In this document: positions 19,480-29,243 of the stretch, piece by piece
How the letters are laid out: the number at the start of each line of letters is the position of its first letter
How positions within the stretch are numbered: the first letter of the stretch is position 1
From: a virus
Virus record (IMG/VR): IMGVR_UViG_3300032331_002706
Coordinates: 1 to 41,941 of that record
Direction: 5' to 3' (one strand)
DNA: 41,941 bases
The notes under the pieces: model-generated
What the model was told of the DNA's origin: nothing
Seen by the model: the letters and a program-made list of their open reading frames with translations, nothing else
Databases searched by the model: none
Made by a program: the position numbers and the translations under genes

Positions 19480-20580
19480 ATGGCTAAAAAAGAAAAAAAA
19501 GATGCATCCTCTCTTACAGCAGCGGTATCATCAGAACTTAAATCAAAATTTGATTTAAATAGATTTAAAGAGAAAAAAGGATTGGCTTCTAATGTAAAGT
19601 TTAAAGACCAACGTTGGATTCCATTTTCTCAAGCATTACAAGAAGCATTGTCTATTCCAGGAATACCAATGGGTCATATTGTTACAGTTCGTGGTAGAAG
19701 TAATACAGGAAAATCAACTACAGTAATTGAAGCAGCAGTAAATGCTCAAAAGATGGGTGTATTACCAGTACTTATTATTACTGAGATGAAACATGATTGG
19801 AATCACTGGAAAACAATGGGTTTTGAAATGAATGATATTCCAAATGAAGATGGAGAAGTTGTAGATCATGATGGTTTCTTTATTTATCGAGACCGTACAA
19901 CATTACATGCCATTGAAGACATAGCAGCATTTATCGTTGATTTACTAGATGAACAGAAGAAAGGTAATTTACCATATGATCTTTTATTTATATGGGATTC
20001 AATCGGTTCAATACCATGTCAATTAAGTTTAGACCACGGTAAAAATGATGCAATGTGGAATGCAGGTGCTATTGCAAATCAGTTTGGTAATTTTGTAAAC
20101 CAACAAATTGTAATGTCACGTAAAGAATCAGTACCATATACTAATACGTTACTGATTGTGAATAAAACAGGTAATACTCGTCCTAAAACACCAATGGAAC
20201 AAGTTCGTATGACTAATAAAGGTGGTGATACAATGTATTATGACGCTTCTTTATGTCTTACTTTTGGTAATATCACTAATGCTGGAACATCTAAGATTGA
20301 GGCTATGAAGGATAAGAAAAAAGTAGAATTTGCTTTACGTACTAGAGTAGCTTGTGATAAAAATCACGTTAATGGTATTACTACAAAAGGTACTATTGTA
20401 TCTACAATTCACGGTTTTATTAAAGATGATCCAAATGTTATCAAAAAGTACAAAGAACAACATTCTCATGAATGGGTAGATATTCTAGGAAAAGGGAATT
20501 ATGACATACAAGAAGATAATTCACAATGGAATGAAAGTTTAGATGTATTTGTTGGTTCATTTGACGAAGAAGAAGATTAA
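19480..20580 (+). CDS. uvsX: UvsX/RecA-type recombinase
   Basis: 366 residues. Walker A is GRSNTGKST at residues 72-80 with Lys78. Walker B is in LPYDLLFIWDSIGSIP. Between them MGVLPVLIITEMKHDW carries the Glu/Lys region typical of the RecA ATPase core. The C-terminus is acidic (DVFVGSFDEEED). UvsX forms filaments on ssDNA, displaces gp32-type SSB, and starts recombination-dependent replication. It lies 19 bases after SSB and 3 bases before the exonuclease gene, so the three are certainly co-expressed. No uvsY-type mediator was recognised nearby. Confidence 0.92.
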   Translation: MAKKEKKDASSLTAAVSSELKSKFDLNRFKEKKGLASNVKFKDQRWIPFSQALQEALSIPGIPMGHIVTVRGRSNTGKSTTVIEAAVNAQKMGVLPVLIITEMKHDWNHWKTMGFEMNDIPNEDGEVVDHDGFFIYRDRTTLHAIEDIAAFIVDLLDEQKKGNLPYDLLFIWDSIGSIPCQLSLDHGKNDAMWNAGAIANQFGNFVNQQIVMSRKESVPYTNTLLIVNKTGNTRPKTPMEQVRMTNKGGDTMYYDASLCLTFGNITNAGTSKIEAMKDKKKVEFALRTRVACDKNHVNGITTKGTIVSTIHGFIKDDPNVIKKYKEQHSHEWVDILGKGNYDIQEDNSQWNESLDVFVGSFDEEED

Positions 20581-27269: not shown

Positions 27270-27370
27270 AGTCAGGTGGTGTAGGTGGCAACACGGAGTT
27301 CGATTCTCTAATTAACGTAAAATCTTTAATATTGTAAGGAATGATACAGGTTCGAATCCTGTCCTGACTG
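27270..27370 (+). ncRNA. tRNA-like element A (extra internal T-arm)
   Basis: Acceptor AGTCAGG (27270-27276) / CCTGACT (27363-27369). D-arm GTGT/ACAC (27279-27282, 27291-27294). T-arm ACAGG-TTCGAAT-CCTGT (27346-27362). Where an anticodon arm should be, a second T-arm-like hairpin GGAG-TTCGATT-CTCT (27295-27309) is followed by 36 unstructured AT-rich bases. 101 bases; no believable anticodon. The frame reads as an opened or chimeric tRNA. Confidence 0.65.
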
Positions 27371-27371
27371 C

Positions 27372-27489
27372 TAAAAGTAAAAACAACATCTCCCCATTTT
27401 TTTGTTCTGTGCACGGGAAGGGTTTATAAGGAGGTTGAGATTGGATGACGTTTGTCTTTTGTAATCCAACAATAAACAGAAAAAGGCAT
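27372..27489. other. Non-coding spacer with one hairpin
   Basis: No gene. One stem is visible: TTGGAT (27441-27446) with ATCCAA (27464-27469), enclosing GAC-GTTT-GTC. The rest is AT-rich and shows nothing I can name. Confidence 0.4.
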
Positions 27490-27558
27490 AGTCAGGTGGT
27501 GTAGTGATTACATAATCGATTTATTTGATGGACACAGGTTTGATTCCTGTCCTGACTA
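27490..27558 (+). ncRNA. tRNA-like element B (closest to a normal tRNA)
   Basis: 69 bases. Acceptor AGTCAGG (27490-27496) / CCTGACT (27551-27557). D-arm GTGT/ACAT with loop AGTGATT lacking the Gly18-Gly19 pair. T-arm ACAGG-TTTGATT-CCTGT (27534-27550). The middle folds as a 4-bp stem ATCG/TGAT (27515-27518, 27526-27529) with loop ATTTATT (27519-27525). Read as an anticodon loop this gives UUA, which would read the stop codon UAA, but positions 32 (A) and 37 (U) are abnormal. It could be a real minor tRNA or a decayed one. Confidence 0.55.
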
Positions 27559-27692
27559 CAGCAGTTGCTTGATGTCAAATATGCACAGCAACAGACATTG
27601 GAGAAATTTGGCTTCTCATGAATGTTAAGTCCTATTGGGCAGAATAGGTGATGAGTACTTATGGTACATTTAAACCCACAACCTCATCAAAT
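27559..27692 (+). ncRNA. Structured spacer with tRNA-anticodon-like hairpin
   Basis: Three consecutive hairpins: GAGAA-ATTTGGC-TTCTC (27601-27617; 5-bp stem, 7-base loop, would-be anticodon UUG) extended by ACATT/AATGT; CCTATT-GGGCAG-AATAGG (27631-27648); and TGATGAG/CTCATCA (27649-27655, 27683-27689). The first resembles a tRNA-Gln anticodon arm. No acceptor or T-arm belongs to it. No coding sequence is visible. Confidence 0.4.
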
Positions 27693-27837
27693 AGTCAGGT
27701 GGCGGAAGGAAAAACGCATCGCAATTATACTTACGAGTAAATTACCACCATAATTCCAAAGTAGGTTGTACAGAAACGCTTTGGTTAGGGTAAGTTGATA
27801 AAAGGTTTACATACAGGTTCGAATCCTGTCCTGACTA
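27693..27837 (+). ncRNA. tRNA-like element C with long central arm
   Basis: 145 bases. Acceptor AGTCAGG (27693-27699) / CCTGACT (27830-27836). D-arm GCG/CGC (27702-27704, 27715-27717), Leu/Ser-like. T-arm ACAGG-TTCGAAT-CCTGT (27813-27829). The centre is one long arm: TTATACTTAC (27725-27734) pairs with GTAAGT + ATAA (27790-27801, two-base bulge), containing an inner stem CCAAAG/CTTTGG (27756-27761, 27779-27784). No anticodon loop of normal form is seen. Confidence 0.65.
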
Positions 27838-27854
27838 CAAAAAGATTAAATAAA

Positions 27855-28757
27855 ATGAATAGAATAAACATACTACCTAAAGGCAAACTAATTCCAATTG
27901 GAGGAGCTGAAGATAAAGGAACTGACTTAGAGACTGGATTTATTCAACGAAATAATTTAAATTTTTTTGAACAAAGCATATTGAGAAGAATTGTAGATGA
28001 AACAAAGCATGGTGTAAATAGCAGAATTGAAGTAATTACAACTGCATCTTTGATTCCTTTTGAAGTTGGGGAAAATTATTTAGATGCCTTTAATAAACTA
28101 AATTGTACAAATGTAGATCTTATTCATATTCGAAATCGAGAAGATGCTTCAAAATTAGAATATATACAAAGAATACTAGAAGCAGATTGTGTGATGATGA
28201 GTGGCGGAAATCAAATGCGTTTAACAGCGATTTTTGGAGGTACCGAAATTTATAAAATCTTACAAGATAGATATATCAATGAAGAAGGATTCATTTTAGC
28301 GGGAACCAGTGCAGGTGCAATGGCAATGAGCAATACCATGATTTATGAAGGTAACGCTGCAAAAGCACATTTAAAAGGCGCTGTGAAAGTAACTACAGGC
28401 TTGGCTTTTATGGGTGATGTAATTTTTGATTCTCACTTTGATAAACGAGGTCGTTTTGGAAGATTAGCGCAAGCTGTAGCTGCCAATCCTTCTTGCATTG
28501 GTATTGGCTTAGGTGAAGATACCGGTCTTTTAATAACCGATGGAAACTTTATGGAAGTAATTGGCTCTGGTATGATTATCATTATTGATGGTCATGATAT
28601 TCGATATTCAAATATCGCCGATTTAGCAGATGGATCCCCTATTTCAATCGAAAATTTGAAAGTTCACTTTTTAGCAAAAGGAAATAAATATATTTTAAAC
28701 GAACGTAAATACATTGAACAAGCAAGTTCTGAATACGAAAAAACAACAGTAGAATAA
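27855..28757 (+). CDS. cphB: Cyanophycinase (peptidase family S51)
   Basis: 300 residues from ATG 27855; the in-frame ATG at 27795 lies inside tRNA-like element C. Landmarks are IPIGGAEDKG near the N-terminus, VMMSGGNQMRL, the nucleophile Ser152 in AGTSAGAMAMS, DSHFDKRGRFGRL, and IGLGEDTGLLI. All are family motifs of enzymes that cleave the reserve polymer cyanophycin into beta-Asp-Arg dipeptides. The length is that of a complete enzyme. Codon use is visibly less AT-biased than its neighbours (more GGC, GCG, GCC), and tRNA-like elements flank it on both sides. It looks like a recently captured host gene. Its use to the phage (freeing nitrogen and amino acids, or another isopeptide substrate) is inference. 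Confidence 0.88.
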   Translation: MNRINILPKGKLIPIGGAEDKGTDLETGFIQRNNLNFFEQSILRRIVDETKHGVNSRIEVITTASLIPFEVGENYLDAFNKLNCTNVDLIHIRNREDASKLEYIQRILEADCVMMSGGNQMRLTAIFGGTEIYKILQDRYINEEGFILAGTSAGAMAMSNTMIYEGNAAKAHLKGAVKVTTGLAFMGDVIFDSHFDKRGRFGRLAQAVAANPSCIGIGLGEDTGLLITDGNFMEVIGSGMIIIIDGHDIRYSNIADLADGSPISIENLKVHFLAKGNKYILNERKYIEQASSEYEKTTVE

Positions 28758-28857
28758 TATTATGTTTTTTATTACTATCAATAATACTATTACTCTCTAT
28801 TGTTGAGATAATGAGTTAAATGAAAGATGAAATTGGGCGTTAACCGATAAAAATAAT
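28758..28857. other. Non-coding spacer after cyanophycinase
   Basis: 100 AT-rich bases with no gene or clear hairpin. TATTACTATCAATAATA near 28771-28787 is a weak inverted repeat, too poor to call a terminator. Confidence 0.3.
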
Positions 28858-28944
28858 AGTCAGGTGACGGAACTGGTTCGATTCCAGATAGACTGTGGAC
28901 AGCGCCGTTGTTGGACATCACAGGTTCGAGTCCTGTCCTGACTA
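28858..28944 (+). ncRNA. tRNA-like element D (extra internal T-arm)
   Basis: 87 bases. Acceptor AGTCAGG (28858-28864) / CCTGACT (28937-28943). T-arm ACAGG-TTCGAGT-CCTGT (28920-28936). A second T-arm-like hairpin CTGG-TTCGATT-CCAG (28873-28887) sits where the D-arm ends. ACGG (28867-28870) can pair with CCGT (28905-28908), enclosing that hairpin. No anticodon arm of normal form is visible. Confidence 0.6.
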
Positions 28945-28952
28945 CTGACAAT

Positions 28953-29014
28953 AACAACTCTGGGGTCAGGGTTTTGTTGCGCCGAAAGGTGGTGTTTTCA
29001 ACGGTTCGAGTCCG
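28953..29014 (+). ncRNA. Partial tRNA-like element E
   Basis: It contains a hairpin with GAAA tetraloop (CGCC-GAAA-GGTG, 28980-28991) inside GTTG/CAAC (28976-28979, 28999-29002), then a T-arm-like CGG-TTCGAGT-CCG (29002-29014). That T-arm runs directly into the AGTCAGG of element F instead of a CCTGACT, so E has no matching acceptor end. Confidence 0.4.
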
Positions 29015-29148
29015 AGTCAGGTGGCGAAAGGTACACGCAAAAAGCCAACTCGTAGATGGAAGCGAGTCTAAATAAGACGAATCCTAAGTTCGTGGTTTGC
29101 ATTAGCGGCTGGCACTTGGGCTTGCAGGTTCGAATCCTGTCCTGACTA
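29015..29148 (+). ncRNA. tRNA-like element F with branched centre
   Basis: 134 bases. Acceptor AGTCAGG (29015-29021) / CCTGACT (29141-29147). D-arm GCG/CGC (29024-29026, 29036-29038). T-arm GCAGG-TTCGAAT-CCTGT (29124-29140). Stem AGCC/GGCT (29043-29046, 29107-29110) closes a branched centre with hairpins ACTCG/CGAGT and ACGAA-TCCTAAG-TTCGT (29077-29093). The latter has anticodon-arm geometry (5 bp, 7-base loop) and would present CUA, matching the stop codon UAG, but position 33 is C instead of U. Confidence 0.6.
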
Positions 29149-29158
29149 CAAAATATAT

Positions 29159-29229
29159 TGCCTGATGGTGTAATGGTAGCACAGCAGTTTTTGGTACTGT
29201 TAGTCTTGGTTCGAATCCAGGTCGGGTAA
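29159..29229 (+). tRNA. tRNA-Gln (UUG)
   Basis: 71 bases with a full cloverleaf: acceptor TGCCTGA (29159-29165) / TCGGGTA (29222-29228), D-arm GTGT...GCAC with AATGGTA loop, anticodon arm GCAGT-TTTTGGT-ACTGT with U33 and anticodon UUG, and T-arm CTTGG-TTCGAAT-CCAGG. The 3' CCA is not encoded. It is the only ordinary tRNA I could find in this cluster. Confidence 0.92.
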
Positions 29230-29243
29230 CTAAATAAACAAAC

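Follow-up and report, generated by a model that had tools for sequence, protein, structure and literature searches.

Five tRNA-like elements in a viral contig

We analysed the IMG/VR virus record IMGVR_UViG_3300032331_002706 over its whole length of 41,941 nucleotides (nt), which is referred to as the window. Between positions 27270 and 29148 it carries, on the plus strand, five tRNA-like elements that share one acceptor stem and T-arm and differ strongly in their middles. As claimed in a preliminary description made from the letters alone, each of them begins with AGTCAGG (at 27270, 27490, 27693, 28858 and 29015) and ends with a T-arm plus CCTGACT (at 27369, 27557, 27836, 28943 and 29147). 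In all five the acceptor stem is fully paired (7/7) and the T-arm precedes its 3' strand; the lengths of 69–145 given there correspond to 68–144 nt plus N73. AGTCAGG occurs 11 times on the two strands of the window against 2.1 expected, and none of 100 shuffles reached 11. In what follows, L-labels denote retrieved loci or contigs and G-labels phage genomes (L261 lies in G040, and L331 is NC_055915).

Element 1 (27270–27370; 100 nt plus N73 G) has the acceptor AGTCAGG/CCTGACT, the D-arm GGTGTAGGTGGCAACACG, a T-loop hairpin in its middle (GGAG-TTCGATT-CTC(T)) and the T-arm, and a near-identical copy of it is found in L086. Element 2 (27490–27558; 68 nt plus N73 A) is the shortest, with acceptor, D-arm, a hairpin of 5 bp and a 5-nt loop at the place of the anticodon arm, and T-arm. 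Element 3 (27693–27837; 144 nt plus N73 A) joins a Leu-type D-arm (GGCGGAAGG..ACGC) to a long middle and the T-arm. In element 4 (28858–28944; 86 nt plus N73 A), GGTGACGGAA is followed by a T-loop hairpin (CTGG-TTCGATT-CCAG) and then the T-arm, and L363 holds a relative of it (76%). Elements 1 and 4 are thus the two that had been described as having a second T-arm-like hairpin. Element 5 (29015–29148; 133 nt plus N73 A) has a Leu-type D-arm, an ATTA-loop hairpin in its middle and the T-arm; by inspection, the CCAA/TTGG and CTCG/CGAG helices of this middle cross, and the same middle recurs in L019, L289, L290 and L291.

A gene of the peptidase S51 family (cyanophycinase-like; 27873–28757, plus strand; Pfam PF03575, E=5e-22) lies between elements 3 and 4, and an ordinary tRNA-Gln gene (UUG; 29159–29230, plus strand) stands just downstream of element 5. 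The latter has the acceptor TGCCTGA and, like the elements, A73-C74; it scored 56.3 bits in Rfam and was the sole call of ARAGORN in the window, which called none of the five elements. Two of the five were accepted by the Rfam tRNA model (RF00005), and only through long inserts: element 1 at 38.5 bits and element 3 at 33.5 bits. Besides RF00005, no RNA family was matched to the elements in the Rfam scans of the window and of six element-rich loci, and no group I intron was found. The impression that no known tRNA intron was involved was also borne out, since no intron model was matched in these scans.

Distribution of the elements in phages

An exact 23-base T-arm/acceptor pattern gave at least 120 matches in viral contigs, and a 5'-end pattern likewise at least 120. 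From these loci, which belong to uncultivated phage contigs, at least 373 distinct elements were extracted, whose middles form 273 similarity groups; the class ranges from 68 to 190 nt. The family is not confined to one phage: phage contigs in which it recurs number well over 200, and acceptors other than AGTCAGG occur too. A single genome may have up to 15 of them by a short 5' pattern, and full elements recognized by structure number 11 in G040 and 12 in G031. Nearly all are on a single strand, often between short genes, and are interspersed with at least 20 ordinary tRNA genes of differing acceptors, so that the expectation that separate tRNAs normally differ in their acceptor stems held for the true tRNAs of related phages. 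In a few cases the same acceptor closes a plain tRNA (for example, L021, anticodon TTT).

The class is restricted to phages. The AGTCAGG type was present in only 3 contigs among 84,980 genomes of bacterial and archaeal species, and a wide pattern (a Leu-type D-arm and a T-loop 55–85 nt apart, with the acceptor unconstrained) was detected in 4 of 396 Bacteroidota and none of 399 Pseudomonadota genomes. It should be noted that two loci from Bacteroidota genomes (L401 and L402) hold tRNA-Leu-like genes that, besides a separate variable arm, have a greatly lengthened stem at the anticodon position (GCATCTCC..GGGGATGC); these genes are single and not obviously phage.

No element with the AGTCAGG acceptor was found in the cultured phages searched. 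Unannotated members of the class are present in Bacteroides phage BS-TP2 (19550–19656, acceptor GGTATCG), whose RNA recurs in L360, L371, L404 and L405, and in Flavobacterium phage FL-1 (about 19625–19797). The annotated 'tRNA-Cys' of Flavobacterium phage immuto (NC_055915, 20246–20331) has the acceptor AATCGGT/ACCGATT, a hairpin in the D-loop and no anticodon arm, and is probably another member judging by these features. Another contig with a member shows a relationship to Paenibacillus phages, and one member was identified in a 735-kb huge phage. A literature search, most subscription papers being outside its reach, returned no account of such a family.

Covariation of the tRNA frame

The wide pattern provided 112 elements among the matches listed, 91 of which had a fully paired acceptor (7/7). 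Among the 74 variants other than AGTCAGG/CCTGACT, 53 were fully paired, compared with 5.0 when 3' strands were exchanged among them. The fully paired stems comprise at least 49 different acceptors, and each position of the stem is occupied by more than one type of Watson-Crick pair, several in all cases; in view of this acceptor-blind survey, the idea that the AGTCAGG sequence itself was the feature that matters was dropped. Changes of the acceptor around a constant middle were also seen: one middle (cluster 0; 48 contigs among the matches listed) occurs with AGTCAGG/CCTGACT, AGTGAGG/CCTCACT and other acceptors, and in L290 the middle of element 5 is combined with GATTGAG/CTCAATC, in which five of the seven pairs are changed on both strands.

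Similar evidence came from the rest of the frame. D-stem pairs covary (G-C, A-U and G-U types), a count biased towards pairs in that D-stems were located by pairing, and the 15-48 pair, which was not selected in this way, is A-U in 293 elements and G-C in 15. Most elements have the Leu-type D-arm GGCGGAATTGGTAGACGC, some have non-Leu types (GTG/CAC), and in some a hairpin is inserted in the D-loop. N73 is A in 89% and G or T in about 10%. C74 was present in 99% and U-1 in 83% of elements, compared with 94 and 67, respectively, of 96 true tRNAs of the same contigs; that both are common to the two groups suggests a shared maturation of the ends.

Thus, the elements possess the closing 7-bp acceptor stem, the D-arm, the T-arm and the elbow (U8-A14 and 15-48) of a tRNA. 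This un-permuted frame (7-bp acceptor, U8, mostly Leu-type D-arm, 15-48, T-arm and A73-C74) is kept by compensatory evolution and is under selection at the RNA level. The preliminary description had suspected selection on the acceptor/T-arm frame, and had regarded random decay of the pairing in related phages as the contrary outcome; compensatory changes were observed at every acceptor pair, and such decay was not seen.

Exchange of the middles

The centre was said to be replaced within the kept frame, and such swaps could be observed directly. L289 carries a middle of the element 5 type where the window has element 3, and L290 carries one of that type, with a different acceptor, where the window has element 2; thus, at one genomic place the centre changes while the frame stays. 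Around the locus, L086 and the window are 95–98% identical, but L086 is without a 1.57-kb segment that in the window lies between the T-arm/acceptor ends of elements 2 and 5; in L086 the 3' end of element 2 runs directly into what follows element 5. From comparison of the two sequences, we read this difference as the outcome of recombination in the constant end or of the reverse event. The missing part includes the cyanophycinase-like gene, which appears to travel as cargo between the repeats, given its absence from so close a relative. More generally, middles and whole elements are exchanged among phages through recombination in their constant ends. The earlier proposal of recombination sites is therefore correct in that recombination between constant ends occurs (L086 and the window), and it leaves the covariation unexplained.

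The anticodon arm is absent from the class. A canonical arm (5 bp, 7-nt loop) following the D-stem was present in 6 of 213 middle groups, against 4.2 expected from shuffles, whereas the same arm was detected in 77 of the 96 ARAGORN tRNAs of the same contigs. Where the arm would stand, the elements have interchangeable RNA modules. T-loop hairpins are strongly enriched within the middles (7 against 0.2 expected). The idea that the anticodon arm is merely lengthened and closes at the D-stem was rejected, as closing helices were not in excess (27 against 26.7 expected). Many middle groups are common to distant phages, and one conserved module is 89% identical between phages whose flanks are at background level (0.51). 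In the G040 element at 105040–105139, 37 nt of the middle matched elsewhere in the same genome, a partial copy.

Crossing helices were examined in 175 middles, with the last strand ending no more than 4 nt from the T-stem. A p-value of 0.01 or less was reached by 10.9% of middles for crossing and by 4.6% for nested helices, where 1% was expected. The predicted structures are pseudoknots of the H-type, with a last strand that stops some 2 nt upstream of the T-stem, and in two cases the crossing helix is replaced in a compensatory manner (GAGCTTT/AAAGCTC in BS-TP2 versus GTTGTAAT/ATTACAGC in L335; GCGCAC/GTGCGC in L046 versus GGGTG/CACCC in L149 or L410). The excess of crossing helices together with these replacements indicates that part of the modules are pseudoknots, as predicted structures.

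Comparison with known RNAs

To our knowledge, RNA C of phage T4 has been without an explanation since the 1970s. This RNA (species 1 RNA, rnaC) is 139 nt long and of unknown function (PMC3014915, PMC9697503, PMC12685909), and it is stable and verified by Northern blots (PMC9697503, PMC3014915). Like the elements, it lies in a phage tRNA cluster and has an acceptor-like end stem (CGAUUCG/CGUUUCG) and a T-arm. Among its relatives, the third acceptor pair changes from A-U to G-C in Moon, ZX14, VPA32 and NM4.3, both strands of the T-stem CCGGG/CCCGG are altered in Moon, VPA32 and NM4.3 (to CCTGG/CCAGG or CCAGG/CCTGG), and VPA32 and NM4.3 also have a different sequence in the 5' part of the middle. 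Compensatory changes that preserve the ends, a partly replaced middle and a location in a tRNA cluster thus form a plan that the elements appear to share. In contrast to them, T4 RNA C is present in a single copy, has two U-U mismatches in the acceptor and lacks a recognizable Leu-type D-arm, and its sequence similarity to the elements is confined to the T-arm. It is the closest RNA known, and, as the Leu-type D-arm is lacking, we regard it as an analogue and a possible member of the class rather than a proven homologue.

YrlA (90–150 nt) consists of D-, T- and acceptor-like arms and a protein-binding stem and likewise combines tRNA mimicry with a distinct effector module (PMC8394870). However, the Ro-binding stem of YrlA is built from its two ends, 5' and 3', whereas the ends of the elements form a normal acceptor and it is the anticodon arm that is replaced. 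Among 45 element-bearing phages, Ro/TROVE proteins gave weak matches in four and RtcB in none. The four (G011, G013, G017 and G026) have an open frame of about 520–560 amino acids whose TROVE (Ro-like) match is weak but above the cut-off.

Transfer-messenger RNA (tmRNA) resembles the elements in its tRNA-like ends, long middle and pseudoknots and differs from them in that the elements have a D-stem and are 68–190 nt long instead of about 350. No tmRNA was reported by ARAGORN in the window or by Rfam in the window and the six loci; no tag frame was identified, and a systematic search for one was not made. The tRNAs of the same phages agree with the elements in operon, strand, U-1/C74 and the D- and T-arms, and differ from them in that the elements are without an anticodon arm and have one acceptor sequence common to many copies. 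GOLLD RNA, a large phage RNA near tRNA genes, is unrelated and about 400 nt long; G040, the phage with most elements, has a strong match to it (L261:15550–15962, 307.7 bits). In addition, a phage tRNA cluster that also holds elements has a match to the freshwater-1 RNA (L020:4124–4186, 70.1 bits; gathering threshold 72).

Possible role of the elements

On the basis of these results, a function of the elements at the RNA level is almost certain, and a tRNA-type maturation is quite probable. We propose that each element encodes a small tRNA-like RNA that takes no part in decoding; to this proposal as a whole, with the steps that follow, we assign a probability of about 45%. The elements are likely transcribed together with the tRNA operons, and RNase P and the enzymes of tRNA 3' processing would then cut the transcripts, which would receive a CCA tail, the likely product being a stable RNA like T4 RNA C. 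With less assurance, we suggest that during infection these RNAs work in trans by mimicking tRNAs: their frame could engage tRNA-binding proteins, such as processing or modifying enzymes, EF-Tu, or the nucleases and modifiers by which host defences attack tRNAs, and the module could supply a second, partner-specific contact. Restriction to phages, many rapidly exchanged modules and a frame recognizable to tRNA-binding proteins are together consistent with tRNA mimicry in the conflict between host and phage. Fast turnover of modules, with several per phage, would fit best with an arms race, in which the elements serve as mimics, decoys or antagonists directed at host defence; this part of the proposal is tentative and less likely than not.

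Several observations weigh against this proposal. The acceptor sequence varies freely and bases other than A occur at N73; both facts speak against a single specific synthetase or acceptor-reading enzyme as the partner. A partner gene common to all phages was not found, and the strongest neighbour families each trace to one lineage. Nested folding of the middles is scarcely above that of shuffles (mean z −0.7), with no general closing helix, and with so weak a folding excess in most middles, a good share of them may be weakly structured. Middles showed no excess complementarity to their own phage genomes (G031, G040 and the window), so that they did not appear to be antisense guides and no target was found. 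The decoy role itself we infer from the pattern alone.

Other explanations start from the same evidence. As a Y-RNA-like tether, the tRNA elbow could anchor the RNA on a general RNA enzyme, in the manner of YrlA and PNPase, while the module holds a second protein and host RNA processing or decay is re-aimed. YrlA does follow such a design (PMC8394870), but we think this unlikely in view of the scarcity of Ro/TROVE and RtcB mentioned above, the ends that pair as a true acceptor stem rather than a Ro-binding stem, and the failure of YrlA to match in the Rfam scans (the window at the gathering threshold, six element-rich loci at E≤0.1). Rather improbable, too, is that the frame is processing punctuation, merely marking cuts by RNase P and 3'-processing enzymes in phage operons around a neutral filler: the position on the gene strand, often between short genes, and a frame whose conservation far exceeds that of the middles as a set would be expected, whereas a middle that is conserved between unrelated flanks, compensatory changes inside middles and the recurrence of many of the 273 groups in distant phages would not. 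Leucyl-tRNA synthetase does not read the anticodon, and tmRNA is charged with alanine; the Leu-type frame might thus be charged with leucine and, bound to EF-Tu, influence translation. The D-arm, the prevalence of A73 and the A15-U48 pair of most elements speak for charging, which is nevertheless improbable given that about one-tenth have G or T at N73, that some D-arms are of non-Leu types and that T4 RNA C has no clear D-arm.

If the constant ends were short homologies of inert DNA-level cassettes, by which material is swapped or deleted, the deletion in L086 and the different middles at one site in the window, L289 and L290 would be explained; 49 perfectly paired acceptors and covariation of the D-stem and of 15-48 are, however, not needed for DNA homology, which makes this account quite improbable. 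Type III antitoxins are known to be imitated by phages, and the predicted pseudoknot modules could similarly neutralize ToxN-like nucleases on a stable tRNA carrier, but the sizes and shapes of the modules vary so widely that we consider this very improbable. Finally, degenerate or intron-bearing ordinary tRNAs could account for the acceptance of many elements by RF00005 at 30–45 bits and for the few plain tRNAs with the same acceptor; with perfect acceptor covariation, conserved T-loops, an anticodon arm at chance level and no match to a known intron family, this is hardly credible.

Returning to the small tRNA-like RNAs, the elements look like a large, unrecognized class of viral RNA that probably includes T4 RNA C, and that has been invisible to annotation because pipelines skip its members or call them tRNAs. 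In a wider form of the proposal, which we hold to be somewhat short of an even chance, phages of several host phyla would share a class of modular effector RNAs, comprising hundreds of modules with different targets, several per phage, on one tRNA frame that feeds them into host maturation, and T4 RNA C would be its first, unrecognized member. If true, this would add to phage biology a common class of viral noncoding RNA and, with it, numerous candidates for RNAs directed against host defences. Such RNAs would carry exchangeable modules on a tRNA, in the way that RNA engineers employ tRNA scaffolds, and the function of T4 RNA C would become a testable question, both by comparison and in T4 itself.

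Other features of the locus

The nearest cultured relative of the window is the T4-like Flavobacterium phage immuto (DnaB, 56.5% identity), and some large proteins of the window have no family match. Between elements 2 and 3, a conserved intergenic segment (27559–27692, plus strand) is shared with related phages (L289, about 1268–1400; L290, from about 1990). It contains a hairpin that changes from GTTGCT/AGCAAC to GTTACT/AGTAAC in L289, as well as a GAGAA/TTCTC hairpin, and is possibly a separate structured RNA. Immediately upstream of element 5, a T-loop hairpin (CGG-TTCGAGT-CCG; 28975–29014) is perhaps the remnant of another element.

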